Positions 23,246 through 61,503 are shown, counted from the stretch's first letter. The stretch is DNA of 64,000 bases from Akkermansia muciniphila (GCA_945900775.1 CAMDJP010000003.1:1-64000), one strand, 5' to 3'. The notes: a model not told the origin generated them from the sequence alone. Made by a program: numbers and translations.

Positions 23246-23322
23246 TGGTGCGCGAGGCGGGAATCGAACCCACAACCTTCGGCTTCGGAGACCGACACTC
23301 TATCCAATTGAGCTACTCGCGC
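23246..23322 (-). tRNA. tRNA-Arg (anticodon CCG)
   Basis: The 77-base minus-strand gene folds as a complete cloverleaf: acceptor GCGCGAG/CTCGCGC, D stem GCTC/AGAG, anticodon stem TCGGT/GCCGA with loop CTCCGAA (anticodon CCG), and T stem GTGGG/CCCGC around TTCGATT. The discriminator is A and CCA is encoded. Confidence 0.95.
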
Positions 23323-23385: not shown

Positions 23386-25092
23386 TCACTTCGTCGTGCC
23401 GTTCACGCGCCTGATCTCGCGTAAGTCATCCGCCGACAGCACCACCGCACCAATCGACGGATCCTCCACCACCACCGCGCCGTTGCGCATCGTGATGGCC
23501 TTGGCGTGCAGCAACGCACCCGAAGGAAGTGCCACGCGGAGCAGCACGCCGGCGGGCGGCATTCGCGGCACATCGCGCAGAGAGACCGCCAACACCTCCG
23601 GCAGTGCATAGGCCTGTAGACCGAAGAGCACCGAGCTCACGGTCACACGGCCTCCCTCGATACCCTTGAACTCGCCATCCACGAAGTCGCCGTTGGCCAG
23701 CAGGACGCCTTTGCGGCCCGCAGGAATCTTCTCCACCGTGCGCGAGGTGAGCGGTTGAAGATACAGGCGCGCGACATTCACAAGCGAGAGCGACGGCGGC
23801 GAGTGCGCGGAGCCGAAGCGGATCGCGGTGTCGTCGGCGGTCTGGATCGGTGCGGGCAGGAGCGAACCACCCCACGTCAGTACGCCCGCCGCCTGGATTT
23901 CGCCGTCATCATCGCCGGCGGGAATCACTCGGTGGAACGGCGGCGGCGGCACGCCCGGGAAAAGTTGGCTGGACGGGATCAACGCTTTCGGGGTCGACGG
24001 GCTGCTCCAGGACAGTCGCGCCGTGCAACCGCCCTGCCGGTTCATCGTCTCCATTCGCACCTCGTAACGCTTGCCTACCTCGAGCGCCAGGCTGCCGGTC
24101 AATTCGCCACGCGGCACGGCGAACAGCTCATTCAGGAGCGGTTTGCCGTTCACCCAAAGCCGCACTCCTTCATCTGACTCAACGTGGAAAGTGTAGGTCT
24201 CGGAATGTTTCGTCTCGAGCTGGCCGGTCCAGCGTACGCTGTAATCTTCCGCCGCCACGTCTGCTGCCGGCGAGTTGGTCCACGCGAAATTCACCACCGG
24301 ATCCACGCGTACCACGGCGTCGCCGAAAAAGAAGCGGCTCTTGAAGTAGGTCGCGAGAAGGCCATTCAGTGCGCCGAGCTTCGCCGCAGGCAAATCGGGC
24401 GGACTGGCTGGATACAACTGGCTCCGTGGCACGATGCTCTTAGCGAAACCCGGGCCGCTCCAGAAGAGCCGCACGCGTGCGTTGCCCACGTTATCGAAAT
24501 ATTCCACACGCAGGTCGTAGCGCCGCGCCGCTTCGAGTCGCACCACACCATTCGTTTCGCCCGACTCCTGCTTCTGCCATTTCTCGAGCTTGAGATCGTT
24601 CCCGAGTTGCATTCGCCCGCCGTCATCGGTCGCCAGCCAGAATGTGTAGAGACCACCGACCGGCGCCTCGATCTGGCCGCTCCAGCGGACGGTGAAATAA
24701 TCCCGTGGAAGATCGAATACCGGCTCGCGCGCGCCCCAGTTGAAATCAATCGCTTCATCCACGCGATAGATGGCTCGACCGGAAAAGTTCGGTCGCTCGT
24801 AGTAGGCACCGACCAGCCCCGTGCCACGGCCCGCATTCGGGAACTTCGCCGTGAGCAACGGATGATTCTCGGGCAGCTCAAACGTCGCCGAGAGCAGGTT
24901 CGTCAGTGCCACGCGCACTGCGGCGCCTTTCACAGGAATCACCTCCACCACACCGGGGGGCACTAGGCGTACCAAGCCGCTGTGCGTCTGACCATCAAGC
25001 GTGCGAACGGTGCCCGCCTCCACGTCGAGCAGACAGAAAAGGAGAAGCACGAGGCACAGCCAACGCGCGCGCGGCGGGAAGCTCGGTTTCAT
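23386..25092 (-). CDS. Exported double-PA14-domain protein, last gene of the MoxR operon
   Basis: The 568-residue protein has a signal peptide (RWLCLVLLLFCLLDVEA). A short beta module (26-75, GTVRTLDGQTHSGLV) comes first, then two PA14 domains. The first (about 91-232) has GLVGAYYERPNFSG, YFTVRWSGQIEAP and FWLATDDGGRM. The second (about 240-385) has GLLATYFKSRFFFGD, YSVRWTGQLETK and VESDEGVRLWVNG. PA14 domains bind carbohydrate. A C-terminal module (403-568, beginning GVLTWGG) is clearly homologous to residues 97-262 of the upstream coiled-coil protein, as is the N-terminal module. Its ATG overlaps the preceding stop as ATGA. Probable role: a secreted glycan-binding component. Confidence 0.85.
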   Translation of the reverse strand: MKPSFPPRARWLCLVLLLFCLLDVEAGTVRTLDGQTHSGLVRLVPPGVVEVIPVKGAAVRVALTNLLSATFELPENHPLLTAKFPNAGRGTGLVGAYYERPNFSGRAIYRVDEAIDFNWGAREPVFDLPRDYFTVRWSGQIEAPVGGLYTFWLATDDGGRMQLGNDLKLEKWQKQESGETNGVVRLEAARRYDLRVEYFDNVGNARVRLFWSGPGFAKSIVPRSQLYPASPPDLPAAKLGALNGLLATYFKSRFFFGDAVVRVDPVVNFAWTNSPAADVAAEDYSVRWTGQLETKHSETYTFHVESDEGVRLWVNGKPLLNELFAVPRGELTGSLALEVGKRYEVRMETMNRQGGCTARLSWSSPSTPKALIPSSQLFPGVPPPPFHRVIPAGDDDGEIQAAGVLTWGGSLLPAPIQTADDTAIRFGSAHSPPSLSLVNVARLYLQPLTSRTVEKIPAGRKGVLLANGDFVDGEFKGIEGGRVTVSSVLFGLQAYALPEVLAVSLRDVPRMPPAGVLLRVALPSGALLHAKAITMRNGAVVVEDPSIGAVVLSADDLREIRRVNGTTK

Positions 25093-27140
25093 TTCGGGAG
25101 ACCGCCGGCGGACTGCTCCGCGAGGGTTCTCTCCAAGCTCATCTTCTCGACTTGCCCACGTTCCGCCAGAAGTTTTTCCTCGTTGAAAAGAGTCCGCTTG
25201 AGGTTCACCTCAGCCTCGGCCTTGATAAAGGCCGCTCGAGACAGGTGCATGGCATTGTAAGCGGCGTTCTTCTCGGTCAACGCCTTCTCGGCGGCAAGGA
25301 GCGCCTCTGTCGCGGCCTTCTCGAGAGCAGCCTTGGCCGTGTCCCACTCCTTGAGTTTCGCCTGCAACTCGGTCAGCAGCTTCTCACCGTCGGCAATGAC
25401 CTTGGTCCGCTTCATCTCAGCGAGCATCACGTCTGCATTCGCTTTATTTTGCACGCTCACGATTTCTCCGGCAATCTTCTCAATGGTAGTGACCCACCCT
25501 GCTAAAATTTTGGCGCAGCTTCCTTCTTCGGTTTTGAACCGCATCAGCATCGTGGACAGTTCCTTAATGCGTGCATCGGCCAAGACCCGCACCCCCTGCA
25601 TCGAGGCTAGGGATTTTGTGGCAGCAGCCGACACGACTTTCGCCTCCTCCCGTTTGGCCGCGTTCTCGGGCTTTTTTTCGGCCTCCTTGGCATTGGGAAG
25701 TCGGTTGATCTTGTTGAGGTCTACGAGGATGGCCACGATCTCTTTGTGCGTGGCGACATCCTGATCTGCCTTGATGAGTTTCTTCCGCGCCTCCTCTAGG
25801 AGCTCGCTGTGCTGTGCAACCGATTTCTTCGAGACGGCGAGCAGCTTCTCGGCAATCTCCTTCTGCACGCTCGCGCTCTTGAGCCGATCCATCGCTGCCT
25901 TTAGAGCTATCTCGCCAGATAGGCGCTGCGCCTTGATAGCTGACTCGGCAACCGCGTGATCAAGTTTCGTCTTGGCCGTGGCTCTCTCCAACTCGGTCTT
26001 CATCACGACGCCCCTGTTGGCTTTGTCTTTAGCTGCGCCGCTGAGGAGGTCCGACTTATGACGCAACTCGATATTTGTCTTGTCCTTGGCTAGGACGTTG
26101 GTCCCGGCCTGCTTAACCGCCGCCAAGGCAACCCTAGAAAATTCCTCGGCGATGACCAGATTGCGCTGGGCGTTTGTGAGCGAGAGGCTCCTCTCCGCAG
26201 CTTTCTTGGAGGCGGCACGTGCCTGGGCAAACAATTGAGTCCGGGCTCGCCAGCGCAAAGCATGATACGAGGCAATTTTGGTGATTAGATTCTCCTGCTG
26301 CGCAGCTCGTTGGCGATCGATCTCGGTCAACATCTCCCACGCAGCCCACGCGGCAGCGAGGCGGTTGGTGGTTTTACCGAAGGAAATCTCCTCAAGTTTC
26401 GCGACTGGCAAACGCAAATCACGTAGGAATGGATCGACGAGGATCAGGGTGTCAGCTTCAGCGCGGAGGTCGCGGGCAAACAGCGCGGAACCATCCCGCA
26501 GACGAACCTCGAACTGCTCCCCCGCGAGCGCAGGTTTTTGCAGCACCACAGCGGTGGCCTCACGGTTCATCTCGAATTTTCGTTCACCAAAAAGGACAGA
26601 GGTCAACTTGATCGAACCGTTCTCGATGGACTTGAGTTTGCCCTCAACAAAATCTCCGGTCACAAGCAGCACACCGGACCGACCGGAGCGCAATGTATTG
26701 GCGCGGTAAGGCGTGATCGGTTGGAAAAAAATGGCAGCCGTGTTCGCCGTGGTCAAAGTGAAGCCAGCGGGCGACTCAGCAAGGCGCACGACGGAGTCAT
26801 CCATCTCGACTACCCCACCGACAAAGAACGCGCCGCCCCATGTCAGGACACCTATCGGCACGGTGCCGTGAGGAACGGCGTTCGTGATCGCAAATGCGAC
26901 CGGCGAATTGGTGGCGGGCGCAACCGGAACGATGGGCGAGGACGCGTCGAACAGGGCCTGCTTCAGTTGCGCGAGCGGGACTGTTTCGATTTTACCTTGC
27001 GGTGTGACAACGCGAATCGACCCACCCACAATCGCAATCTGTCCCTCGATAATTTGATCGGTGCGCGTGCGAACGGAACCAGCCTCTGCCACGAGCGTCC
27101 ATCCCAGTACGGAGAGCAGAATGAGTCGAGAGCGGTGCAT
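25089..27140 (-). CDS. Exported coiled-coil protein sharing modules with the PA14 protein
   Basis: The 683-residue product starts with a signal peptide (MHRSRLILLSVLGWTLVAEA). Residues 20-65 (GSVRTRTDQIIEGQI) and 97-262 (GVLTWGGAFF, RSGRSGVLLVTGDFVEGKLKS, VRLRDGSALFARDL) match the two flanking modules of the downstream PA14 protein. The remaining 420 residues are long Ala/Lys/Glu-rich helices predicted to form coiled coils (such as ERATAKTKLDHAVAESAIKA). No enzyme motif is seen. It ends by overlapping the PA14 gene start and begins 12 bases after the toroid gene. A structural or adaptor role in the envelope is likely. Confidence 0.8.
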   Translation of the reverse strand: MHRSRLILLSVLGWTLVAEAGSVRTRTDQIIEGQIAIVGGSIRVVTPQGKIETVPLAQLKQALFDASSPIVPVAPATNSPVAFAITNAVPHGTVPIGVLTWGGAFFVGGVVEMDDSVVRLAESPAGFTLTTANTAAIFFQPITPYRANTLRSGRSGVLLVTGDFVEGKLKSIENGSIKLTSVLFGERKFEMNREATAVVLQKPALAGEQFEVRLRDGSALFARDLRAEADTLILVDPFLRDLRLPVAKLEEISFGKTTNRLAAAWAAWEMLTEIDRQRAAQQENLITKIASYHALRWRARTQLFAQARAASKKAAERSLSLTNAQRNLVIAEEFSRVALAAVKQAGTNVLAKDKTNIELRHKSDLLSGAAKDKANRGVVMKTELERATAKTKLDHAVAESAIKAQRLSGEIALKAAMDRLKSASVQKEIAEKLLAVSKKSVAQHSELLEEARKKLIKADQDVATHKEIVAILVDLNKINRLPNAKEAEKKPENAAKREEAKVVSAAATKSLASMQGVRVLADARIKELSTMLMRFKTEEGSCAKILAGWVTTIEKIAGEIVSVQNKANADVMLAEMKRTKVIADGEKLLTELQAKLKEWDTAKAALEKAATEALLAAEKALTEKNAAYNAMHLSRAAFIKAEAEVNLKRTLFNEEKLLAERGQVEKMSLERTLAEQSAGGLPK

Positions 27141-28198: not shown

Positions 28199-31100
28199 TC
28201 ACTTCCGATTGCCCGAGTCGGACAGGTTGCGAAGGAATTGCTCGACCAGCGGGCCGTATTCCTCGGGATACTTTTCACCCTGCGACTGGAGAATCGCGTT
28301 GCGATCGCGCTTGGGCAGGCTGATGAAGGTGGACTGGCCTTTCACGTTGCGGCGCGGCCCATCTGCACCACCCGAACCAGCCCAGTTACCGATGTCGCCA
28401 GTACCCTTCGGCGCCGGCTCACCTTGACCGGGCTGTTTGCCGGGCTGTTGACCCTGACCTTGGCCTTGACCCTGCCCCGGCTGCTGACCTTGGCCGGGTT
28501 GTTGGCCTTGACCGGGTTGTTGGCCAGGCTGCTGACCTTGACCCTGAGCCAATTCCGGGGTGCCGACTCCACTTTGAGCGAGAGCGAGAGCGGCAGCGGC
28601 CTGAGCCAACGCCTGCTGCGCGGCAGCGGCATTCGCCTGCGCGGGCATCGGGGCGTTCGCGGCGGCTTGCGCGGCGGCATTCGCGAGCGCTTGCTGCGCC
28701 TGCTGAACAGCCTGCTGCGCGGCGGCGGGCAGCTGCTGCGCACCGGCGGCAAGCGGGCTGACAAGATTGGCGGCGTTCTCAAGCGGCTGTGCGGCGGGCG
28801 TGGCGCTCATTGCGGCCAACTGCTGCGCCATCTGCACGGCCTCGGCTTGCATCTTACCAAGCTGCGGCAATGACGGTGGGGCTTCACCCTTGCCCTCGCC
28901 TTTGCCCTCGCCTTTGCCCTCACCTTTGCCCTCACCTTTGCCCTCACCTTTGCCCTCACCTTTGCCTTCGCCTTCGCCTTTGTCCTGCGGTTTCTCACCG
29001 GCGGGTTGAGCGGCTTCGATGCCCTTCTGTGCTTTCTTCATGCTCTCAATCGCGCCCGGAATGTTGTTCTCAGCGAGTTGCTTTGCCGCTTCTGCAGCGG
29101 CTTGTTTCGCCTCCTGAACAGGCGCTTCGGCCGGTGCATTCTTGGCAACTTCCCCGAGGGCCTTGGCAATCTGCTGCTGCTTCTCGATCAACTGCTCGGC
29201 AAGACCCGCCTGCGGCTCGAGCTTGGCCAGGGCCTGATTGAGTTCCTGCTGAGCCTGATCAATCGCGGCGGCCGCGGCGGCGATCGCTTTCTGATCGTTG
29301 CTCGGCGGTTCACCCAGTTCGGCGGCGAGCTGGGCGGCCTGCTGATCCACGGCTTTTTTGGCGGCCTGCAAATCGGCAATCGCTTGCGCCTGTGGCTCAC
29401 GAGCGGCTTGGGCGTTGGGCTTGTCGAGCTGGCCCTTGGCGGCTTCCATGTTCTTCTTGGCATTTTCAAGAGCGTTGGCGGCAGCCTCAGGGGCGTTGGC
29501 TTTCATCGCCTCAGCTTTGGTGTCGGCGGTCTCCTTGCTGAGATCGTTCTGAGCCTTGGCGTTGGCAGCATTCTCCTTGGCCATTTCCTTCGCGTTGGCC
29601 TCGGGCTTGGCAGCGTTTTCAGGCTTACCAGCATTCTCTGGTTTGGCGCCATTCTCAGGCTTGCCTGGATTGTTTTCGGGCTTGGGAGAATTCTCGGGCT
29701 TAGCGGCGTTCTCTGGTTTGCCAGCGTTGTTCTCGGGCTTGGCCGTGTCGGCCGCCTTCTGCTTCTCAGCGGTCTTGGCGGTGTCCATCTGCACCTTCTG
29801 CTGGTCCTCGATGAGCTTGCTGATTTTCTGGCCGAGTTCCTTGAGCTTGGCCACCTCTTCCTTGGCCTTTTCCATCTGGGCAATCTGCTGACCGAGTTGC
29901 TGGTCGGCTTTGTTGAGAGCGTCAATGGCGGCCTGCTGGGCTTCGGGGGAATTTTTCGCCTCGGCGAGCTTATCCTCGGACTTCTTCATCTGCTTGGCAG
30001 CCTCGGCGATCGACTCGGCGGCCTCGGGTGCCGTCTCGGCGGCCTGCTTCTGCGCATCCTGCGTCTGGGCCTTGGTCTCAGCCTGCTTGGGGGCCTGCTC
30101 TTTGAGGGCGGAATCCTTGGTCTCAGGCTTGTCGTTCTTCTCGGCCTTGGCGGCGTCTTCCTTGATCTTCTTCTCGGCCTCAATCAACTCGCGGACTTGC
30201 TTCTGCAGCTCCTTGGCAGCGGCAATCTTGTCCTTGGGTTTCTCGGTCTGCATCTTGGCGAGCTGTTCCTGCAGCGACCTCTTGGCCTCTTCCATCTTGG
30301 CGAGGGCCTGCTGCTGCTTCTCGGGGGCGACGGCGGTCTTCTGCCGCACCTCGGTGGTCTTATCGGCGATAGCAGCCCGAGCTTCCTGCTGCTTATCGGT
30401 GGCGGTCTTGAGATCCTCGGAAGCCTTCGGAGCGACAGTCTGTACGTCCTCGCGAATGGAATCGGTACGGTCCACGAGATCGCCCTGCTTCTTCTCGGCA
30501 TCGACGGTGTCGGTGGTCTTTTCAATGTTCTTGGTCTGCTCCATCAACTGCTTCTGGTCAACCATGGCCTTTTCTAGGTCACGGAGCGCCTGTCGGATAA
30601 TCTCGTCCTTATCGCGGGCGGCCGCGAGCAGCTTGGAGAGGTCGAGCATCAGGTCACGGGCCTTCTTCTCGTTGCCGGCGGCGGAGAGAAGATTCTGCTG
30701 CTTGAGGTCGCCGGTAGCGGAATCCATCGTGGGCAGGAAGCGGCCTTCAGCGGATTTCTGCAACGCGAGACGCGGACGGACTTCGATGTTCGGGTCCACT
30801 TCTTTGGAAAGTTTCTCGAGCTTCGCGATGAGAATCTTCGCTTCGTCACCGAGGGAACCCTGCTCGGATTCCTGAAGCTGCATAGAGATTTTGTAGGACT
30901 CGGTGTAGCGGCCGGCACCGGCGCGAGTGGTGGCCTCGAGGCCAACGCCTTCCTTGAGGTTCGCGTTCTGGCGGACGGCGAGGGCGGCGAAACGGAGCGA
31001 GAGCTGCTGCAGCACCTGTTGGCGTTGGTATTCAAGGAGAAGTTGGCGGAGCTGGACAACGATGCCTTTTTGACCCGTAAAGGCATCCACGATGCGGCGG

Positions 31101-31411
31101 TTCACGGTGCCGGCATCCTTGTCGTTGCGCGCGTCGCGGAGCAACTCGACAACGCGTTGAATCTCCTTCTCAGAAAGTTTGCCGAGGACGCCGCGGATGG
31201 CCTTGAGAATCTCGACGTCGTCGCCGGTGAGACCGTTGCGCTCGTACTCCTCGATGACGCTCGAGAGCAGCTTGTTCACGCGGTCGGTGGTGGTGCGAAT
31301 CTGCTCCTGCTTGACCTCCTGCTGGAGCAGGCGGTCCGAGGGGGTCTCGACCGGCACGGCGAACGCCATCGGGGCGAGCGCGAGGAGCATTGCGAGCATC
31401 AGTTTATTCAT
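28199..31411 (-). CDS. Giant low-complexity coiled-coil envelope protein of the MoxR operon
   Basis: The start is ATG 31411, preceded by AGGCAAT, giving 1070 residues with a signal peptide (MNKLMLAMLLALAPMAFA). Residues 20-400 are long charged helices (VIEEYERNGLTGDDVEILKA, IRQALRDLEKAMVDQKQLME). They are followed by Lys/Glu/Ala coiled coil, a run of Pro-Glu-Asn/Lys units (GKPENAGKPENAA-type), more Gln/Ala helices, seven tandem GEGK units, an Ala-rich stretch and a Gly-Gln-Pro tract (GQGQQPGQ). The last 60 residues are ordinary (TFISLPKRDRNAILQSQGEKYPEEYGP). Similar proteins often follow DUF4175-type genes. Its role may be structural. An upstream gap of 125 bases leaves room for an internal promoter. 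Confidence 0.8.
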   Translation of the reverse strand: MNKLMLAMLLALAPMAFAVPVETPSDRLLQQEVKQEQIRTTTDRVNKLLSSVIEEYERNGLTGDDVEILKAIRGVLGKLSEKEIQRVVELLRDARNDKDAGTVNRRIVDAFTGQKGIVVQLRQLLLEYQRQQVLQQLSLRFAALAVRQNANLKEGVGLEATTRAGAGRYTESYKISMQLQESEQGSLGDEAKILIAKLEKLSKEVDPNIEVRPRLALQKSAEGRFLPTMDSATGDLKQQNLLSAAGNEKKARDLMLDLSKLLAAARDKDEIIRQALRDLEKAMVDQKQLMEQTKNIEKTTDTVDAEKKQGDLVDRTDSIREDVQTVAPKASEDLKTATDKQQEARAAIADKTTEVRQKTAVAPEKQQQALAKMEEAKRSLQEQLAKMQTEKPKDKIAAAKELQKQVRELIEAEKKIKEDAAKAEKNDKPETKDSALKEQAPKQAETKAQTQDAQKQAAETAPEAAESIAEAAKQMKKSEDKLAEAKNSPEAQQAAIDALNKADQQLGQQIAQMEKAKEEVAKLKELGQKISKLIEDQQKVQMDTAKTAEKQKAADTAKPENNAGKPENAAKPENSPKPENNPGKPENGAKPENAGKPENAAKPEANAKEMAKENAANAKAQNDLSKETADTKAEAMKANAPEAAANALENAKKNMEAAKGQLDKPNAQAAREPQAQAIADLQAAKKAVDQQAAQLAAELGEPPSNDQKAIAAAAAAIDQAQQELNQALAKLEPQAGLAEQLIEKQQQIAKALGEVAKNAPAEAPVQEAKQAAAEAAKQLAENNIPGAIESMKKAQKGIEAAQPAGEKPQDKGEGEGKGEGKGEGKGEGKGEGKGEGKGEGKGEAPPSLPQLGKMQAEAVQMAQQLAAMSATPAAQPLENAANLVSPLAAGAQQLPAAAQQAVQQAQQALANAAAQAAANAPMPAQANAAAAQQALAQAAAALALAQSGVGTPELAQGQGQQPGQQPGQGQQPGQGQQPGQGQGQGQGQQPGKQPGQGEPAPKGTGDIGNWAGSGGADGPRRNVKGQSTFISLPKRDRNAILQSQGEKYPEEYGPLVEQFLRNLSDSGNRK
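28421..28550 (-). repeat. Gly-Gln-Pro coding repeat tract
   Basis: Imperfect short units (minus strand, coding GQGQQPGQ-type residues) repeat about twelve times inside the 1070-residue protein. Unit lengths vary between 6 and 15 bases, so the tract could change length by slippage. Confidence 0.7.
28882..28983 (-). repeat. 12-bp tandem repeat coding GEGK units
   Basis: On the plus strand the unit CTTTGCCCTCAC recurs about eight times with single-base variants (CTTTGCCCTCGC, CTTTGCCTTCGC). The central copies are identical. It encodes seven GEGK units in the large coiled-coil protein. There are no spacers, so it is not a CRISPR. Confidence 0.9.
29600..29742 (-). repeat. Pro-Glu-Asn/Lys coding repeat tract
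   Basis: The minus strand encodes about eight KPEN units separated by one to three residues (NAG, NAA, NSP, NPG, GA). At DNA level the units are 12 to 18 bases and diverged, unlike the nearly identical GEGK units. Confidence 0.7.
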
Positions 31412-31536: not shown

Positions 31537-33210
31537 CTACTTTTGTTCAGCCTTTTCGCGGATCAACGTTCCGAGCCGCTGGTTCAGCTTTTCCTGGTCG
31601 CTGGCCACGTCGCTGATGCTGCCCAAGAAATCGCCGGCGCGGTTCAGCAAGTCAGCGCGTTTCTCCGCATCGCTCACCACTTTGGCGGTGAAACGAGCGC
31701 TGACCCCCACACCGGGACCGGTCACGTCGTTGTTGTCCTCCACCTCGATCCAGTAATCGATGGAACTACCCTCGGGCGGAAGCGGACTGAGCTTGCCCAC
31801 GTTCCATTCGTAGCGGTTGCGAACGACGCGATCGGGTCGGCCGGTGTCGAGCGGGAACGACTTCGCCGCAGCGCCATCCACCGAATAGGCGAGGCGGACT
31901 TTGGTAACAGCGAAATCATCCAGCGCCTCAAAAGCCATCAGCAGGCGCGCACGCTGGGTGATGAGGTCTTCTTTGCGATCGGGATAGGTGATGCGCACGG
32001 TCGGCGCCTTGTCAGGTAGCAGGTCCACGCGATAGACCGCCTCATCCTTAGAGGTGATGCCCTGCTTGTCCACGAGATGGATGCTGAACCCGTTGAACTC
32101 CTCCTTCGGCACAGGAATCTCGGTCGTCAGATCGCGCGCGTTAGCGGCAATCTTCATCGCCAATTTGTTTGTGGTGGTCGTGCCGAAAAGCCAGACCTCC
32201 GCCTGCGTCACTTCCTTGCTCGGCGTCACCTTCAACTTCAGCACGCTGCCGGCGAGTAGGGTCAGGTCGCCCAGAGAACGCTTCACCGAACCGAGCTCGG
32301 TGTACTTCGGAAAATCCTGCACCGCTTCGATGGCAGCGATGCTCGGCCGCGGTACCACCTCGACCTTCGTGGACTGGCTCTGACCGTCGTTCAGCTTCAC
32401 GATGAAGGTGAACGATTCGGTCACCGACTCGAGTGTACGGACGAAACGGACCTCGTTCGTGCGCCCCATCGGATACTCCATCGTTCGACCCGAGGCGTAC
32501 TTCACGAGGAGCTTACCGTCTTTCGGTACCAAACCGCGCGCGGTGGCTTCGATGGTCACCGATTCGCTCGTCGGCACAATCCGGTCCCCACCCACGAGCT
32601 GCACGCGGGTCTTGCGCGGTACCGACGTGTCCTGCGAAAGGAAGGCGCGCTTGAGCAAATCGTGTGCATCGTCGCCGAGCGAGCGATAGCTGTAGGCGCC
32701 GGCGCCGATGAAAACCAGAGCGGCGAGAGCGAGCTTCACGAAACGAAGGGCGTTGATCACGTCGCCGAACTGAATCGGCCGCGCCATCTGCTCGGTCTCG
32801 CGCACCAACTCCGTTACCAGCACCGGCGAGGCGCCAGCGGGAATCGCGCGCGGCTGCGTGAGCTGGAGCGCGGCAATCAGGCGCGAACGGAACTGCGGCA
32901 GCGCGCGCTCGACAAGCAGCGCCACCGCATTGTCATCCGGGCGGCGGAGAATGGGCGTGAGAACGTCCCGGAAAAGAACGTAGGCAAGGGCACTCGCATT
33001 CAGCGCGAGCAACGCGGCGCGTGCGGTCAGAGGAAGGTCGAGCAGCCAATCGGCGAGCATCCCCCCTGCAAGCAGGCCCGTGACAAGAATGATCGCAATC
33101 GACACGCCGCTGCCGGCGGTGACCGTCAGCAGCTTCGTGCGAACGCCGGCGAGCTTCTCGTGCAGCAGTGCGCTGGGCGCGATGGATTGGTTGGCAGTGT
33201 CGGTGCTCAT
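31537..33210 (-). CDS. DUF4175-like membrane protein
   Basis: The start is ATG 33210 (MSTDTANQS), overlapping the upstream stop as ATGA; the frame continues ten codons further up without support. The 557-residue protein has two N-terminal membrane segments (GVSIAIILVTGLLAGGMLA, LTARAALLALNASALAYVLF) and a third near residue 160 (LALAALVFIGAGAYSY). A large extracytoplasmic beta-rich region follows, with Ig-like sheets (RKTRVQLVGGDRIVPTSESVTIEATA, PTVRITYPDRKEDLI, SIDYWIEVEDNNDVTGPG). This layout matches the DUF4175 type seen after BatA genes. A C-terminal helix is charged. Function unknown; it probably links the inner-membrane part of the system to its exported partners. Confidence 0.75.
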   Translation of the reverse strand: MSTDTANQSIAPSALLHEKLAGVRTKLLTVTAGSGVSIAIILVTGLLAGGMLADWLLDLPLTARAALLALNASALAYVLFRDVLTPILRRPDDNAVALLVERALPQFRSRLIAALQLTQPRAIPAGASPVLVTELVRETEQMARPIQFGDVINALRFVKLALAALVFIGAGAYSYRSLGDDAHDLLKRAFLSQDTSVPRKTRVQLVGGDRIVPTSESVTIEATARGLVPKDGKLLVKYASGRTMEYPMGRTNEVRFVRTLESVTESFTFIVKLNDGQSQSTKVEVVPRPSIAAIEAVQDFPKYTELGSVKRSLGDLTLLAGSVLKLKVTPSKEVTQAEVWLFGTTTTNKLAMKIAANARDLTTEIPVPKEEFNGFSIHLVDKQGITSKDEAVYRVDLLPDKAPTVRITYPDRKEDLITQRARLLMAFEALDDFAVTKVRLAYSVDGAAAKSFPLDTGRPDRVVRNRYEWNVGKLSPLPPEGSSIDYWIEVEDNNDVTGPGVGVSARFTAKVVSDAEKRADLLNRAGDFLGSISDVASDQEKLNQRLGTLIREKAEQK

Positions 33211-35687
33211 TTCAGGTACGACACTTTGCGGAGGATCCATTCACTGGTCACGACCAGAAGAATCAGCAGGAAGTAGAGCGGTGAGGACCACAGCTCGACT
33301 TCGAGCTTGGAACGGACCCGCTCGGTCTTCTCCCCGACGAGAGCGGGCAGTCGGTGCAAATCCTCCTCGCGCAAGAAGGCGCCGCCGGTCGCCGCGGCGA
33401 GATCGCGCAGGAGCGGCGCGTTCATCGCCGTCTCACCCAGCTCAAACTTCGGCTCGGTCACGTTGAAGTCGAGTCGAGTCTCGGGATCCTGCTCGACATG
33501 AAATTTGTAGAAGCCCGCCGCCGGCGCAATGAACTCGCCGCGGTAGATGCCCGGCTGCTCAGGCACCGGCTTGAGCTGCACCTCGGCGGTCTCTTCGGTG
33601 CCGCGCTGCACGTACAACCCTTTCACCACGGGCTCCTGCACCGGCTCGAAACCGACCGAGTAGAGTCGCGCGTAGATGCCGACTCGTTCCCCGGTGACGA
33701 AGTTCTGCCGGTCGGCGGAGAGTTGCGTGCGCTTGCTCGCGCCCATCAGCCGCTGGAGCGCCATCCGCTGCGAGACCTGCCCCCAGAGCGCGGTGTAATA
33801 CTCGTCGCCCACGTTCTTGCGCCAGCGCCATGTGTTGTCCGTGCCGATGTAGAGGACCTGGCCGAGGCCATACTGCTGCTGCGCAACGACGGGCATCTTC
33901 CCGAAACGCGTCTCCTTCGCCGGATCGGGATCCACGAGCAACACCTCAGCCGCCGGCTTCGCGCGTGTGACCCGCGCCACCCAATATACGGGCGGCAGCT
34001 TGCGCCAGAGCGCGAGATTCTCATCGTCCTTATCAGAGAGGCGAAGCATCGAGCTATCCTTGCCGCGACCGGTCAACTCGAGCCGGATCGGCTTGTCATA
34101 AATACCCTCGCCATTGGCCGCCGCGCTGAGCGTGGAATCAAACTCGACCGGCAGCAGGCGCTCGAGGACGGTGCTGCGGTAGGCGTGTGGGGAGAAGCGA
34201 CGACCCGCGACCATCACGAACGCGCCGCCGAAGCGCGAGACGAACTCGTTCAGGTTCTCGAGTTGCTGATTGGTGAGCCCCTTCGGGTCCACGTCGCCGA
34301 AGAGAATCACGTCGTACTTGAAGAGTTCTTCCTTCCGCGTCGGGAACGATTCGAGATAGGGCGAATCCTCGCCGCGCGCGATAGTCGGGTCGCCCTCAAT
34401 GAGCAGCGTCTTCAGCTCGATGCGGCGATCGCGCATGAACATGGCCTGCAGATAGCGGAACTCCCAGCGCGGCGACTGCTCCACCAGCAGCACCTTGATC
34501 TTCGCGTCGATCACACGGATGTGGTGCGTCCGGCTGTTGTTGTCCTTGACCGTCTCGTCAGCACGCGCCTCGATCGATGTAGTGAGGTCAAATTCACCAA
34601 TCTTGTCCGGCGTGAAACGGAGCGTGACGAGTTGCTCGCCGTCACCAGCGAAGTTCACCGGCACCTCGGCCACCGACGTCTCGCCGAGCTTCAATTGTAT
34701 CTTTGCCGATTCGCCCGCCAAACCCTGCGAACGAACGCGTACTTTCACTTCCACCTCGTCACGGACGAAGCTGATCTCGGGCGCAAAAATGTTGGCGACG
34801 ATGATATCGCGCGGCGCGGTGATGCCGATGCCATAGATGAAGAGGGGCACCCCGACCTCGCGCAATTGCGCGGCGACGTCGCGCGGCTGGCTGCCGAGAT
34901 TGTTCGCGCCGTCGGTGGCAACCACGATACCGGCGAGCGGTTGGCCACGCTTGCGCTGGAGCACCTCGCGCAGAGCATCACCCATCGCCGTGCCGGGGCT
35001 AGGCGCCTCGAGCTTGTCCACCCAGAGGAAATCCTGCGGCTTCGCCTTGCGGCGCTTGTTCGGCTCCACCTCCGGCTCGCCTTCCTTCACAGGCGCTTGG
35101 CCGGCCTTCTCGCGTGGCAACTCGATGACACGCTGGCCGAAGCTGAACGGCACGAGATCGAACTGCTCGTCGAGCCGCGGCAATAGGTCGAGCTGTTCGT
35201 TGCGGAACGCAGCCTTCGCGAGGTCGATCCGCATGCTCTGGTTAAATTCATCCGTGCGGCCAGCTGGAAGGTTTTGGGAAAGACCGTTGGTCGCGCCGAG
35301 TGCACCACGGACGAGGGCGGCCCGTTTAAGATCATCCACGTTCACGCGCGGGTCGCGAATCTGCATGCTCGAGCTGCCGTCCACGAGAATCAGCAGCGAA
35401 CGACGAATGCTGCCCTCGACGGTGAAGGCCAGCACCGGGCGTAGCAACAGCACGAGCAGCAGCGCAAGGAAAACACCGCGCAGTGTAACTAGCGCCGCCT
35501 TGCGCGCGGGCGTGAGGCTCTCGGGCACGAGCCGGTAGCTCCACCAGGTGAGCGCGGCGAGGAGGAGCGCGGCCAGCACCAGCCAGCCGGGCGCGATCCC
35601 GCCACCGTGGAAGGCGACCGAAGTGCCGGCAATCTCCGCCGCCGCATCGACCTTCACACCGAGGAGTTTGAGGAGTAATTCCGTCAT
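33207..35687 (-). CDS. VWA-domain membrane protein with glutamine-amidotransferase-like fold
   Basis: The protein has 826 residues from ATG 35687. Two membrane segments (GWLVLAALLLAALTWWSY and VTLRGVFLALLLVLLLRPVLAF) precede a von Willebrand factor A domain with the MIDAS motif LVDGSSSM, TDGANNLG and IFIYGIG-like strands. A periplasmic beta domain follows. A class I glutamine-amidotransferase-like module comes next (about 410-640: VLLVEQSPRWEFRYLQ, YDVILFGDVDPKGLTNQQ, FVSRFGGAFVMVAG). A last membrane segment (PLYFLLILLVVTSEWILRK) closes it. The gene follows the BatA-type gene by ten bases. Such proteins accompany MoxR ATPases and are thought to be substrates or effectors. Confidence 0.85.
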   Translation of the reverse strand: MTELLLKLLGVKVDAAAEIAGTSVAFHGGGIAPGWLVLAALLLAALTWWSYRLVPESLTPARKAALVTLRGVFLALLLVLLLRPVLAFTVEGSIRRSLLILVDGSSSMQIRDPRVNVDDLKRAALVRGALGATNGLSQNLPAGRTDEFNQSMRIDLAKAAFRNEQLDLLPRLDEQFDLVPFSFGQRVIELPREKAGQAPVKEGEPEVEPNKRRKAKPQDFLWVDKLEAPSPGTAMGDALREVLQRKRGQPLAGIVVATDGANNLGSQPRDVAAQLREVGVPLFIYGIGITAPRDIIVANIFAPEISFVRDEVEVKVRVRSQGLAGESAKIQLKLGETSVAEVPVNFAGDGEQLVTLRFTPDKIGEFDLTTSIEARADETVKDNNSRTHHIRVIDAKIKVLLVEQSPRWEFRYLQAMFMRDRRIELKTLLIEGDPTIARGEDSPYLESFPTRKEELFKYDVILFGDVDPKGLTNQQLENLNEFVSRFGGAFVMVAGRRFSPHAYRSTVLERLLPVEFDSTLSAAANGEGIYDKPIRLELTGRGKDSSMLRLSDKDDENLALWRKLPPVYWVARVTRAKPAAEVLLVDPDPAKETRFGKMPVVAQQQYGLGQVLYIGTDNTWRWRKNVGDEYYTALWGQVSQRMALQRLMGASKRTQLSADRQNFVTGERVGIYARLYSVGFEPVQEPVVKGLYVQRGTEETAEVQLKPVPEQPGIYRGEFIAPAAGFYKFHVEQDPETRLDFNVTEPKFELGETAMNAPLLRDLAAATGGAFLREEDLHRLPALVGEKTERVRSKLEVELWSSPLYFLLILLVVTSEWILRKVSYLK

Positions 35688-35697
35688 CGCGTGCAAC

Positions 35698-37875
35698 TCA
35701 TTTTTGCCGACTGAACCACTGTGCCAACCAGGTCTCGACAGCCGCTAACGCCAGCACTAGCAGCGCCAGCGGCAGCCAGAATTCCGTGCCCACGCGCTCT
35801 TTTTCGACCAAATCGCGGAATGAAAGTGAGGGCGACCAGTCGTATACGCTCGCGGCGGTCTTGAGCTTCTCTTTGTCTTCCACCGCCAGTTCGGCAAGGT
35901 CTGACTCACGCGGGTCGGGCTGCGCCGCGAAGCGAATCACCACCGGTGGATCGTTCACCGTCGCCTCGTAAGCACCGCCGGAATCGGTGCTGGCAAAGCG
36001 GAACGTCGGCACGCCATTCGCCAGCTCGATACGGCGCAACTCGCGGGTGGCAGTCGACTGCGCGGGACCCGTGACCTGCGCGTCGCGGCCGATGAGATCG
36101 AGGCTGACTTGCCGCGTGAATTCCTGACCGACGGGCACGTTCAATCCTTCGTCCTGCCGCTGCACGAGCGATCCAAGAGTGCGCTGTACAAGCGCGAGAA
36201 AGGCCGGCCGCACGGGCAGGTCGTTCCACGCCGTGTCCGCCGTGCTACTGAAGAGGAAAACGCGGCCGAGGCCCCACGCGCGTTCCATCACGGCCGGACC
36301 GCCGTCGGCGTAGCGCAAGACGGTGCGCGCCGGGCCGGCGTCCGTCGCGGCGGGTTTCTGGTTTGCGGCAGCGGGCTCGAGCTTGAACGCGCGGTAGAAC
36401 CGCGCCGAGGCGAGCGTACCAGCCCCGGGATTGTTCCAAAGCGCGGTGACGGGATGCTCGTAGTTGCGCGTCTGCAGCGTGACGAACTTCTCTTCCTGGT
36501 CAGCGTTGCCTTCAGCCGGACCGAGAGCGGCGGGCAACAGCGCGTGGCGCGTGAACAGCACGTCGTTGTAGAAGCCGACGTTCACCTTCGCGCCGGGGAA
36601 AACCATCAGGCCGCCGCCGCGCTTGAGGTATTGCTCGAGCGCCTTGACGGTGGCTTCGGGGAAATCAGCCACGTTAGCGAGAATGACGGCGTCGAAATCA
36701 TCCAGTCGCGTGGTGGAGAGCTCCATTGCGGAGATGGTCGTGGTCTTGACGAAATAATTCTCGCGGTCGAGCGATGCGACCGGCACGAGTGCATGACCAA
36801 GAATGAACGTCTCGCTGTCCCGCGGCTCCGTGCCCGGTTCGCCGTCCACGAGCAGCACGCGCGCTTCGCGGATAGCGCGGCAGACGACCGTGCGCTTATT
36901 GTCGGCCAGCAGACGATCGTCCGGAATGCGCGCGGTGACGGGATAAAAACCCTCGGCGCGGAGCTTGCCGAAGAGCGAAACGCCAATCGTCTCCCCCGGG
37001 CGCAGGAGCGGCACGGTGATTTCATCGCCGGAAGGCTCGCTACCGACGCCGAGCGTCACGCGGACGTTCTTGGCCTCTTCCTTGCCGAAGTTGGTCACCT
37101 GCACCTCGAAGCGGATTGGGCGGTTCACCGGCGTGAGTCCGCCCGCGACGGTAAGCCCGCTGATGCCGAGATTGCCCTCTTCCTTCGCGCCGACGAGCAG
37201 GATGTGACTCTTGATTTCGGACTTCGTCTGCTCGAGCGATTTCTGAATGTCACCGAGCTGCCGCCAACCGGCAGCCTGCCCGTCGGTGACGAGGTAGATC
37301 TCCTTGCGCAGCGCAGCGCGGCCCTTGAGCGTCTCGATTGCTTTTTGGATGGCCGGAGCCAGGTCGCTCGCGCGGTCGGAAAGTTTCGCTTCGCGGATGT
37401 TTTTGCGGGCGAAGTTGAGGTCGAAGGTCGGCTCGGGAATCAGCCCTTGTGCAATATCCGAGGCGAGCAGCACCGCAGTTGCAGAACCGGCGGGCAGCGC
37501 ATCAATCGCCTGCTCGGCGGCCTTGCGGGCCTTGTCGAAGCGCGTCTCGGCGCCGTCGCTCACACCCATACTAAATGAGTTGTCGAGCAGCAGCACGCCG
37601 GTGACCTTGGTCTGGCCGAAGAGGTCGGTCGTGCTGGACTTCATCGCCGGACGCGAAAGGGCGAGCGCGAGCAGAGCGAGGATGAGGCAACGGAGAGCGA
37701 GCAGGATGAGATCCTCGATCCTCATACGGCGCTGGTTCTGGTCCACGCTGGCCTTGATGAAGCGCATCGCCCCCCAGACCACACGCTGGAATTTACGCCG
37801 GTTCAGCAGGTGGATGATGATCGGCACCGCCACCGCCGCCGCGCCCGCCAGCAATAATGGATTGAGAAAGCCCAT
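35698..37875 (-). CDS. BatA-type VWA membrane protein
   Basis: The 725-residue protein begins with the BatA N-terminal signature FLNPLLLAGAAAVAVPIIIHLLNRRK, with the phrase split by the first membrane helix. A second helix follows (LILLALRCLILALLALALSRP). The VWA domain starts at LLLDNSFSMG with a complete MIDAS (DxSxS) and EIYLVTDGQAAGW. A CARDB-like beta domain and an amidotransferase-like module with DAVILANVADFPEATVKALEQ and GGGLMVFPG are next. The C-terminal helix is FWLPLALLVLALAAVETWLAQW. It starts three bases after the DUF58 stop. Confidence 0.9.
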   Translation of the reverse strand: MGFLNPLLLAGAAAVAVPIIIHLLNRRKFQRVVWGAMRFIKASVDQNQRRMRIEDLILLALRCLILALLALALSRPAMKSSTTDLFGQTKVTGVLLLDNSFSMGVSDGAETRFDKARKAAEQAIDALPAGSATAVLLASDIAQGLIPEPTFDLNFARKNIREAKLSDRASDLAPAIQKAIETLKGRAALRKEIYLVTDGQAAGWRQLGDIQKSLEQTKSEIKSHILLVGAKEEGNLGISGLTVAGGLTPVNRPIRFEVQVTNFGKEEAKNVRVTLGVGSEPSGDEITVPLLRPGETIGVSLFGKLRAEGFYPVTARIPDDRLLADNKRTVVCRAIREARVLLVDGEPGTEPRDSETFILGHALVPVASLDRENYFVKTTTISAMELSTTRLDDFDAVILANVADFPEATVKALEQYLKRGGGLMVFPGAKVNVGFYNDVLFTRHALLPAALGPAEGNADQEEKFVTLQTRNYEHPVTALWNNPGAGTLASARFYRAFKLEPAAANQKPAATDAGPARTVLRYADGGPAVMERAWGLGRVFLFSSTADTAWNDLPVRPAFLALVQRTLGSLVQRQDEGLNVPVGQEFTRQVSLDLIGRDAQVTGPAQSTATRELRRIELANGVPTFRFASTDSGGAYEATVNDPPVVIRFAAQPDPRESDLAELAVEDKEKLKTAASVYDWSPSLSFRDLVEKERVGTEFWLPLALLVLALAAVETWLAQWFSRQK

Positions 37876-37878
37876 GGC

Positions 37879-38784
37879 TCAGCGGGTGGTGGTCTTGAGA
37901 CGGAAGGCGAGGTAGCTGCTCAGCATCTCTTGCAGCGGTTGGGCTGTGTTCACCATCACGTAATGGACGTGGTTCTTCTCGCAACCCTCGCGCAAGCGGG
38001 TGCGGAAGGCCTCGAATTCGCGCAGGTAACTCTTCCGGATCTCCTGGGGGCGAGTGAGAATTTTCGGAATGCCCTCGAGCCCTTCGAATTCGACAAGCCC
38101 CTTGAATGGAAACTCGAACTCGTCCGGATCGAGCGTGTGAAAAAGAACCACCTCGTGGCCGGCGAAGCGCAAGTGCTGGATGCCCTCGAGCACCTTCTCT
38201 TCGTCGTCGAACAAATCGCTGATGACAATGATGATGCCCTTGCGACGCACGACGCGAGCGATGTCGTGCAGCACGCCGGCGATGTTCGTCTGCGCCGTTG
38301 GCGCGAAGGCGGCGAGCCGCTGCATCACGGTGTGAATGGTCGCGCGGTTGTCGCTGCGCGGGGCATAGTCCCGCATCGCTTGGTCGAAGATACCGACGGC
38401 GGCGGCGTCGCGCTGATGTAGGATGAGGTAGGCGAGGCAGGCGGCAAGCATCTTGCCGTACTGAAACTTGGTGAGCCGGCCGGAGCCGTACTGCATCGAC
38501 TCGGAACCGTCGAGCAGGATGTTGGAGACGTAGTTGGTCTCCTGCTCGTATTGCTTGATGAAATAGCGGTCGGTGCGCGCCTGCACCTTCCAGTCGATGT
38601 GACGCGTGTCGTCACCCGGCGCGTACTCGCGATGCTGGGCAAACTCGATGGCGAAGCCGCGATAAGGCGACTTGTGCTCCCCAGCCATATAGCCCTCGAC
38701 CACGTAACGAGCCTGCAAGCCAAGTGCCTCGGCCCGCTGAATCGTCAGCGGGTCGAGCAACGAATCAATGGTCTGCTTGTCCAT
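37879..38784 (-). CDS. DUF58-domain protein, MoxR partner
   Basis: The 301-residue protein has the DUF58 core YAPGDDTRHIDWKVQARTDRYFIKQYEQE (shown split: YAPGDDTRHIDWK, then DRYFIKQYEQE) and a VWA-like fold around it (ILLDGSESMQYG, IIIVISDLFDDEEKVLEGI). DUF58 proteins are encoded next to moxR across bacteria and are thought to work with the ATPase on VWA clients. No membrane helix is evident, so it is probably cytoplasmic. It lies 60 bases after moxR and three bases before the BatA-type gene. Confidence 0.92.
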   Translation of the reverse strand: MDKQTIDSLLDPLTIQRAEALGLQARYVVEGYMAGEHKSPYRGFAIEFAQHREYAPGDDTRHIDWKVQARTDRYFIKQYEQETNYVSNILLDGSESMQYGSGRLTKFQYGKMLAACLAYLILHQRDAAAVGIFDQAMRDYAPRSDNRATIHTVMQRLAAFAPTAQTNIAGVLHDIARVVRRKGIIIVISDLFDDEEKVLEGIQHLRFAGHEVVLFHTLDPDEFEFPFKGLVEFEGLEGIPKILTRPQEIRKSYLREFEAFRTRLREGCEKNHVHYVMVNTAQPLQEMLSSYLAFRLKTTTR

Positions 38785-38844: not shown

Positions 38845-39885
<1,041 letters not shown>

Positions 39886-39918
39886 CACTTTGTTTTCGCT
39901 GAGTCCAAACAGTTCACA

Positions 39919-39995: not shown

Positions 39996-40166
39996 TTAGC
40001 GAACCGTGGCCCCACTCGCTTTCCCGGGGATGCCAGCCGTTGCGGTGAGCTTCTCTTGCCCGCATGTCCACACCTCGAATAGCACCGGCACAGGCACTGC
40101 GCCGCAGAAGACAACCGCGCAAACGGAAACCGCGACCAGCATCAAAAAGAACCCCCACTTCATCAT
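39996..40166 (-). CDS. Possible 56-residue membrane or secreted peptide before moxR
   Basis: From ATG 40166 the frame reads MMKWGFFLMLVAVSVCAVVF, a clean hydrophobic signal or membrane segment, then about 36 residues with few charges. There is no Shine-Dalgarno. It sits in the 438-base gap between moxR and the divergent helicase gene, the rest of which (40167-40323) holds nothing I can identify. If real, it would be co-oriented with the MoxR operon. Confidence 0.25.
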   Translation of the reverse strand: MMKWGFFLMLVAVSVCAVVFCGAVPVPVLFEVWTCGQEKLTATAGIPGKASGATVR

Positions 40167-40323
40167 CAGAAATCGCCGCAAAGCCTCCTGCCACTGGCCA
40201 ACGAGAAGGAATACAGCGAAACACGCGGCAGAGAAACACGAGGTTACCTCTGAAGTTAGTCAAAGAATAGCTCTCGCACAGTCGTGGTTCTCTGATAGGC
40301 TCGCCAAGTCGTTTCGACACAGC

Positions 40324-42339
40324 ATGACACCCAAACTGTTCTCCGAACTCGGTCTTTCGCCCGAGATAATCAAGGCCATCGATAAGCTCGGCTTCGAGCA
40401 AGCTGCACCGATTCAAGGGGCGGCCATCCCCGTTTTGCTTGCCGGCAAAGATGTCGTCGGTCAGTCCCAGACGGGCTCCGGGAAGACCGCCGCATTCGCC
40501 ATCCCCGCCATCGAGAAGACCGACCCGAACGACCGCGCCGTACAGGTGCTCATCCTCTGCCCCACGCGCGAACTCGCCGTGCAGGTAGCCGAGGAGGTCC
40601 ACAAACTCGCGATTTTCAAGCGCGGCATCCAGGCTTTGCCGATCTACGGCGGCCAATCTTACGACCGCCAGCTCTACGGTCTTCGCCAAGGCGCGCAGAT
40701 TGTCATCGGCACGCCCGGCCGCGTCATGGATCACATGCGGCGCGGCACGCTCCGCCTCGACAAGCTGAAGATGGTCATCCTCGACGAAGCCGACGTGATG
40801 TTGAACATGGGTTTCCGCGAGGACATCGAGTTCATCCTGCAGAGCACGCCCGCCTCCCGCCAGACGGTCTTCTTCTCCGCCACAATGCCGCGGCCAATTC
40901 GGGAGCTAATTGAAAAATACGCGAAAACGCCGGAGAACGTCCGCATCGAGCAGCAGGCGATGACCGTCCCGACAGTCGAGCAAATCTATTTCGAGGTGGA
41001 CCGCCGCTGGAAGGTGGACGCGCTCATCCGACTCATCGACATCCACGACCTCAAGCTCGCCATCATCTTCTGCAACACCAAACGAATGGTGGATGACCTC
41101 GTCGAGCAACTGAACACGCAGGGTTATTCCGCCGAAGGTCTGCACGGCGATCTGAGCCAAGCCCAGCGCGACCGCGTGATGAACAAGTTCCGCAAGGCCG
41201 GCCTCGAGTTCCTCGTCGCCACGGACGTCGCCGCGCGCGGCATCGACGTGGACGACATCCAAGCCGTCTTCAACTATGATCTGCCCTACGATCCGGAGGA
41301 TTACGTCCACCGCATCGGCCGCACCGGCCGCGCGGGCCGCAGTGGCATGGCCTTCTCGTTCGTCGCGGGCCGCGAGCTGTTTCAAATCCGCCACATCGAG
41401 CGCTTCACCAACATGCGTATCCAGCGCGGGCGCGTTCCCTCAGTCGAGGAAGTGGACGAGGCGCGCGCCAACGTTCTTCTCAACAAGGTACGCGCGACGC
41501 TGCAAGCCGGCGAGTTCGAGCGCCAGGACCACGCCGTCGAGCGCCTGCTTGAGGAAGGCTTCGACAGTACCGATGTCATCTCCGCGCTGCTGCACCTGCT
41601 GCAAGGCGACGAATCCAACGCATCACAACCGCCCGCAAAGACCGACGCGCGTGAACACCCGCAACGCCCCGAGCGAACCGCTCCGCTGCATACCGCCTCC
41701 TCTGCGCCGGTTGCGCCTAAACAACCATTGCGCGCCACTGCGAAAACCGTCGCACCACGCCCAGCATCGGCTGAACCCAAATCCTTCAAGACCGCAAAGA
41801 CCGCCGCGCCCATCGCTGCCGCGCCTCTGATTAAATCGTCTGTTATTCCCATCTCCATCTCCAGCGGACCGTCTGCGCCCATGAGCGAGCCCGCCATTTC
41901 GCCTCTACCTCGGATGGTAAAAGTTCCGTTGCCCAAGAAATCTGTTCGCGCTGCACTCGACAGTCCCGGCGCTCGCCAACCGGTCCGCCGCGATTACGAC
42001 GAATACGAAGATCAACCGCGCGAGCGTCCCCAACACACCAAAGCTGAACACGGCAAGTCGGTCCCAAACCTCATCCCGCAGCGTCCCGCCAGCCGCCGCA
42101 CGCCCGAACAGATGACACGTCTCTGGTTAAGCGTGGGGGATGAGCATAGCGTCACCTCGGGCGATATCGTCGGTTGCATTCTCGGCGAAACCGGTCTGCC
42201 GACGCAAACCGTCGGGACCGTGGACATTCGTGAGCGGCACACTTTCGTGGACGTGGCGGCGGAGTCCGTCAACGCCATCATCTCCAAACTCAAACGCACC
42301 GTCATCCGCGGTCACCGCTTGAAGATCAAACCCGCGTGA
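40324..42339 (+). CDS. deaD: DEAD-box RNA helicase with DbpA-type RNA-binding domain
   Basis: The 671-residue protein starts at ATG 40324 (MTPKLFSELGLSPEII); the frame stays open upstream to 40006 without coding support. All helicase motifs are present: Q motif, SQTGSGKT, PTRELA, GTPGR, DEAD, SAT, ARGIDVDD and HRIGRTGRAGRSG. After a disordered Pro/Lys-rich linker (about 450-595) comes a DbpA/CsdA RNA-binding domain (LSVGDEHSVTSGDIVGCILG to RGHRLKIKP). This is the DeaD/CsdA plan, used in ribosome assembly and RNA decay. Its TGA overlaps the GTG of the ABC-F gene. Confidence 0.93.
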   Translation: MTPKLFSELGLSPEIIKAIDKLGFEQAAPIQGAAIPVLLAGKDVVGQSQTGSGKTAAFAIPAIEKTDPNDRAVQVLILCPTRELAVQVAEEVHKLAIFKRGIQALPIYGGQSYDRQLYGLRQGAQIVIGTPGRVMDHMRRGTLRLDKLKMVILDEADVMLNMGFREDIEFILQSTPASRQTVFFSATMPRPIRELIEKYAKTPENVRIEQQAMTVPTVEQIYFEVDRRWKVDALIRLIDIHDLKLAIIFCNTKRMVDDLVEQLNTQGYSAEGLHGDLSQAQRDRVMNKFRKAGLEFLVATDVAARGIDVDDIQAVFNYDLPYDPEDYVHRIGRTGRAGRSGMAFSFVAGRELFQIRHIERFTNMRIQRGRVPSVEEVDEARANVLLNKVRATLQAGEFERQDHAVERLLEEGFDSTDVISALLHLLQGDESNASQPPAKTDAREHPQRPERTAPLHTASSAPVAPKQPLRATAKTVAPRPASAEPKSFKTAKTAAPIAAAPLIKSSVIPISISSGPSAPMSEPAISPLPRMVKVPLPKKSVRAALDSPGARQPVRRDYDEYEDQPRERPQHTKAEHGKSVPNLIPQRPASRRTPEQMTRLWLSVGDEHSVTSGDIVGCILGETGLPTQTVGTVDIRERHTFVDVAAESVNAIISKLKRTVIRGHRLKIKPA

Positions 42340-61306: not shown

Positions 61307-61503
61307 TTCCACTAGTTTAGAGTGCCATGCTTATGACTCAATTCATTTCTATACGACATTTCAGTTTAACCAAAACCTGCCGGCGAGGTGAACATACTGT
61401 GAAGCAGTGCGGTGGCAACGGTCGGCGAGCTATGCGCGATCTAATTCAGCCAAATCGGGGGTGAAAAGAGCGTTTCGACCGCTGCAGCCCGATTGATGGC
61501 GCT

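Follow-up and report, generated by a model that had tools for sequence, protein, structure and literature searches.

Two adjacent genes on the minus strand of a 64,000-nucleotide stretch of Akkermansia muciniphila DNA (GCA_945900775.1 CAMDJP010000003.1:1-64000; hereafter the window) encode a protein with two PA14 domains, P0001, and a coiled-coil protein, P0002, which have two modules in common. How did two proteins that differ so much in their remaining parts come to share these modules, and what might the modules do? An earlier note on this DNA proposed an adjacent duplication followed by domain gain. Our analysis points to a different history for the pair, and the larger finding lies beyond it: an apparently undescribed repeat scaffold, tied to an operon that resembles the Bat (Bacteroides aerotolerance) operons and provided with an exchangeable slot for domains of sugar-binding type.

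The gene pair and its shared modules

The two genes encode the following features (residue numbers are those of each protein):

23386..25092, minus strand: P0001, 568 aa; signal peptide, N-module, two PA14 domains, C-terminal C-module
24880..25023, minus strand: P0001 N-module, residues 24-71; barrel-like unit 1
24406..24825, minus strand: P0001 PA14 domain 1, residues 90-229; Asp-Asp (D156-D157) at the place of the calcium motif
23956..24366, minus strand: P0001 PA14 domain 2, residues 243-379; Asp-Glu (D307-E308) at the motif
23407..23886, minus strand: P0001 C-module, residues 403-562; units 2-4
25089..27140, minus strand: P0002, 683 aa; signal peptide, N-module, C-module, long helical tail
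26949..27089, minus strand: P0002 N-module, residues 18-64; unit 1
26382..26852, minus strand: P0002 C-module, residues 97-253; units 2-4
25107..26360, minus strand: P0002 helical tail, residues 261-678; four long helices predicted by AlphaFold2

The genes overlap by 4 bases (ATGA, 25089-25092), and both proteins have an N-terminus of exported type, a hydrophobic segment in P0001 and a hydrophobic helix at residues 3-19 in P0002. Pfam finds PA14 (PF07691) in exactly two stretches of P0001, both between the modules, as had been read from the sequence (E 1.5e-51, 174.5 bits against a cut-off of 24). In P0002 it finds no PA14 and no convincing match to any other family. The earlier note placed a long coiled coil after the modules of P0002, between which no PA14 domain intervenes; the four long helices are predicted there, in a tail that has a pLDDT of ~50-83 along most of its length and lower values near residues 470-510. 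Between sister species P0001 is 86-88% identical and P0002 just 57-59% (L028:2820-6535, plus strand): the coiled-coil partner evolves much faster.

The likeness between the two proteins, which the earlier note had illustrated with short matching strings, extends beyond them. In BLASTP the C-modules align with 34% identity over residues 403-560 of P0001 and 97-252 of P0002 (85.9 bits, E 1e-21), and N-terminal residues 8-54 and 3-56, respectively, align with a pairwise E of 0.002. A single N-module profile matches both proteins, P0001 at residues 24-71 (E 4e-20) and P0002 at 18-64 (E 7e-19). The C-module profile, built from P0001 and P0002, matches, after iteration and at E <=1e-44, ~50 other proteins predicted in related genomes, and the N-module profile also matches upstream of most C-modules. 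The core of the C-module, GVLLxxGDFVxG and SVLFG, is strongly conserved across the order.

We cut the C-module profile into three units and compared these with one another and with the N-unit. The N-unit resembles units 2 (E 4e-5) and 4 (E 8e-6), and unit 2 resembles unit 3 (E 8e-7); five of the six unit-unit comparisons score above all 40 column-shuffled controls. Units 3 and 4 have no detectable direct likeness, 7 of 40 shuffles scoring as high. At the level of sequence profiles, these comparisons show that a single beta unit of ~50 residues is present four times, once in the N-module and three times in the C-module, with a domain slot in between.

Neither Pfam nor NCBIfam contains the module family, and searching the modules against Pfam and PDB profiles returned no convincing match; the relationships described below give this uncharacterised domain family a genomic context. 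Matches to PDB profiles of small barrels are weak (RimP, E 0.067; designed small barrels, E 0.002 and 0.24), and the AlphaFold2 models of P0001 and P0002, made from alignments of 5-7 sequences taken from the window and related loci, are poor (mean pLDDT 44 and 53, respectively). These low-confidence models have beta strands in the expected places, and a five-strand pattern is predicted in the N-module. This pattern and the weak PDB matches liken the unit to SH3/Sm-like small barrels, although no match is convincing over a whole module unit; a small SH3/Sm-like barrel may be taken as a weakly supported lead to its fold.

Operon, slot domains and a possible role

The pair is preceded on the minus strand by seven further genes, in the order P0009, P0008, P0007, P0006, P0005, P0004, P0003, P0002 and, last, P0001:

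27153..28202, minus strand: P0003, exported alpha-alpha toroid of squalene-cyclase/prenyltransferase/TED type, directly upstream of the module genes
28199..31411, minus strand: P0004, exported helical low-complexity protein
31537..33240, minus strand: P0005, DUF4175-like membrane protein
33207..35696, minus strand: P0006, membrane-anchored VWA protein
35698..37875, minus strand: P0007, BatA-type VWA membrane protein
37879..38784, minus strand: P0008, DUF58 protein
38845..39888, minus strand: P0009, MoxR-type AAA ATPase, first gene of the operon

From their order, strand and spacing, we infer that P0009-P0001 are co-transcribed. A tRNA-Arg gene (anticodon CCG; 23246-23322, minus strand) lies directly downstream of P0001. 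P0003, the toroid, has a further match, to the TED profile of macroglobulins. P0004 has long low-complexity stretches with GEGK, QPGQ and KPEN repeats; its place is conserved across the order and its length is variable.

Of 320 genomes examined in the order, 58 have the module. With P0003 orthologues taken as matches of E <=1e-99, well separated from the next ones at 1e-58, the toroid occurs in 52 of the 320, and all 52 have the module; only 6 of the remaining 268 genomes have a module and no toroid, several of them fragmentary or incomplete. Fisher's test gives p 1e-53 for this co-occurrence across the 320 genomes, a value that ignores relatedness and treats non-independent genomes as separate. 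In 36 of the 52 a module gene lies on the same strand <4 kb downstream of the toroid gene; in the other 16, where the two do not adjoin, there are contig breaks or the module is at another locus. The module tracks one operon, in tight partnership with the P0003 toroid gene. Searches of the class and of the phylum matched it in 30 of 384 and 3 of 388 genomes, respectively, and by these counts it is, within the phylum, nearly confined to the class Verrucomicrobiae. In family f53 the P0001 orthologue sits at another locus, away from the toroid. Its neighbours there are a bacterial alpha-2-macroglobulin of 2125 aa and another MoxR/DUF58 cluster (L083:10343-16720, minus strand).

The slot between units 1 and 2 differs in content among relatives. 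It is empty in P0002, in a 244-aa protein at locus L118 (L118:8604-9338) and in families f90 and f91; it holds one PA14 domain in the long proteins of f53 and in f61 and f41, two in P0001, f53, f25 and f38, and three in f51. In short partners in f51, f4 and f18 it holds a DUF1349-like domain, and proteins of other orders end in an NPCBM domain placed after the C-module. PA14, DUF1349 and NPCBM can all be assigned to carbohydrate-binding types; the Pfam cut-off is not reached by many DUF1349 matches and some NPCBM matches. That such domains are found lineage after lineage on a conserved exported component suggests a role at the cell-envelope glycan interface.

One group of relatives has tails of ~260-1000 residues behind the C-module, adjacent tailed and tail-less gene pairs are found in f1, f51 and f4, and the minimal form is the L118 protein, which has little beyond the modules. 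In the two sister genomes, immediately upstream of MoxR, lies a gene for a third module protein, whose insert is DUF1349-like (L027:8119-9987 and L029:8101-9486, both plus strand). No third module copy was found in the window's own genome, and the place upstream of MoxR holds a DEAD-box helicase on the opposite strand (40006-42339, plus strand). An 889-aa protein at L097:7638-10307 (plus strand) has two tandem C-modules and two DUF1349 matches.

The PDB structure closest to the PA14 dyad of P0001 is that of RsgI3 from Clostridium thermocellum (6qe7; E 7e-58, 287 residues aligned), whose PA14 dyad binds pectin (PMC4711584). Both proteins have a tandem PA14 pair, with one Asp-Asp motif per dyad. 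However, RsgI3 is a membrane anti-sigma factor, whereas the P0001 dyad sits between module units. RsgI factors carry a cytosolic anti-sigma domain and a transmembrane helix ahead of the sensor; P0001 has only an N-terminal hydrophobic segment and no anti-sigma domain in Pfam. PA14 calcium-dependent lectins of the Flo5/Epa type have a DcisD calcium motif (PMC6218569). In P0001 the Asp-Asp pair of this motif is kept in one of the two domains, PA14-1, the cis peptide and calcium binding being features that sequence does not reveal.

These observations can be brought together if P0001 and P0002 are exported adaptors of a MoxR/VWA (Bat-like) envelope machine. The repeat units, folded as small barrels, would dock on a conserved periplasmic partner from their own operon, for which the toroid P0003, the helical P0004 or both are the likeliest candidates. 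The earlier note suggested that the two proteins may dock on the same partner, and the conserved position of the module genes behind the toroid gene agrees with this. P0001 would present its PA14 dyad to envelope or environmental polysaccharide, the helical tail of P0002 would act as a spacer or bundling arm, and together the two would couple contact with glycan to the VWA proteins of the inner membrane and to the MoxR ATPase in the cytosol. Both the docking of the modules and the binding of glycan by the cassettes are inferences. The whole, namely an old exported pair with a four-unit scaffold, docking barrels, glycan-binding cassettes and the loss of PA14 from P0002 that is argued below, is our best explanation, and we rate its chances of holding in full as about even. 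A bolder extension is possible and distinctly more tentative: the repeat scaffold, nearly specific to Verrucomicrobiae, would be the terminal component of a Bat-like machine, an exchangeable socket in which PA14, DUF1349 or NPCBM tunes the glycan that is read or anchored, and duplication would have left glycan binding to P0001 and spanning or bundling to P0002.

Alternatively, the modules themselves might bind glycan or peptidoglycan, which would make P0001 and P0002 wall-binding or adhesive stalks and their link to the operon one of co-regulation. The recognisable slot and C-terminal domains, being of carbohydrate-binding type, agree with this, as does an L118 form that is little more than modules. 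Yet the module is found almost exactly where this one operon is, and the core of the C-module is strongly conserved throughout the order; both point to a specific protein partner rather than to generic wall binding, and we regard direct wall binding by the modules as rather unlikely.

History of the pair

Part of the proposal of adjacent duplication and domain gain stands: the two genes are paralogues, and their shared modules flank a variable domain. A recent duplication in the window's lineage, after which P0001 gained two PA14 domains, would agree with the adjacency and overlap of the genes and with the presence of both modules in each product, and PA14-free module proteins in other orders (L118, L109-L113) imply that PA14 was gained at some point. 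However, in the C-module tree P0001 groups with the 554-563 aa PA14-dyad proteins of f53 (support 94/95) and P0002 with the long post-toroid proteins of the same family (96/94), and several f53 genomes hold both types at separate loci (for example G186 at C6 and C65, G187 at C88 and C141, G177 at C90 and C14). Since P0001 and P0002 each have their own f53 orthologue, the duplication predates the split of families f1 and f53. A single clade of all modules of f1, the window's own genus, is likewise rejected (AU p 0.020).

The PA14 domains argue against a gain in P0001. In a PA14 tree whose outgroup consists of Chloroflexi and Pontiellaceae sequences that match in PA14 only, the first domains of P0001-type proteins group with the first domains of the f51 triads, and the second domains with the second/third (90/78 and 98/94). 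P0001-type PA14 domains as one clade, which would correspond to a separate origin of the dyad, are rejected (AU p 5e-5). This tree places a PA14 pair in the slot before the P0001 lineage parted from the three-PA14 proteins of f51. Orthologues of P0002 in f53 carry one shortened PA14, and this remnant and the shared PA14 ancestry fit a loss in P0002 better than a gain in P0001. Most likely, P0002 lost its PA14 domains, which corrects the direction of the domain change inferred for the pair; recent duplication with gain in P0001 is largely refuted and now very improbable.

The minimal forms in other orders suggest a first state without PA14, and with it a single earlier gain. An exchange of domains among paralogues could look like shared PA14 ancestry, and the deep branches of the module tree are weakly supported. 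A division of the family into two clean clades, with and without a helical tail and separated by one change, failed when more taxa were included, the P0001 clade adjoining tailed proteins.

Comparison with known MoxR/VWA systems

The operon resembles Bat operons in its MoxR ATPase, DUF58 protein, BatA-type double-anchor VWA protein and further exported proteins, the MoxR, DUF58 and BatA-type VWA genes occurring together. It differs from them in its DUF4175 protein, helical low-complexity protein, toroid and four-unit module proteins with PA14, DUF1349 or NPCBM, and P0001-P0009 have no Pfam match to BatD or to the TPR components (BatC, BatE). Clusters described as Bat also contain an SH3 domain and TPR proteins (PMC5700661), and the SH3 domain may be set beside the small-barrel reading of the modules as an analogy only. 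In Borrelia BB0173 the BatA-type VWA domain is exposed to the periplasm (PMC5700661). It has been written that "Bat function remains elusive" (PMC3557215).

With the MoxR-vWA ternary conflict systems (Kaur et al. 2020, PMC7159879) the operon shares a MoxR and VWA core, and it differs from them in having DUF4175, toroid and exported proteins and in lacking third components and effectors. It is scarcely credible that the pair belongs to such a signalling or defence-type system with P0001 as its recognition component: MoxR and VWA genes are present and P0009 has a sub-dominant bpMoxR match (E 7e-12), but P0009 fits AAA_3 far better (E 6e-63), Pfam finds no beta-propeller, iSTAND, FtsH or VMAP component and no effector domain in P0001-P0009, and PA14 is not mentioned in that paper.

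In the literature on MoxR with DUF4175, on MoxR/Bat operons and on PA14/NPCBM in Verrucomicrobia, we found no description of an operon of the P0001-P0009 type. Elsewhere in the window, the minus strand encodes a PSCyt1/PSCyt2/PSD1 cytochrome protein (58769-61312) and a DUF1501 protein (45057-46412); PSCyt genes of freshwater Verrucomicrobia have been noted as also carrying PA14 or NPCBM domains (PMC5615132).
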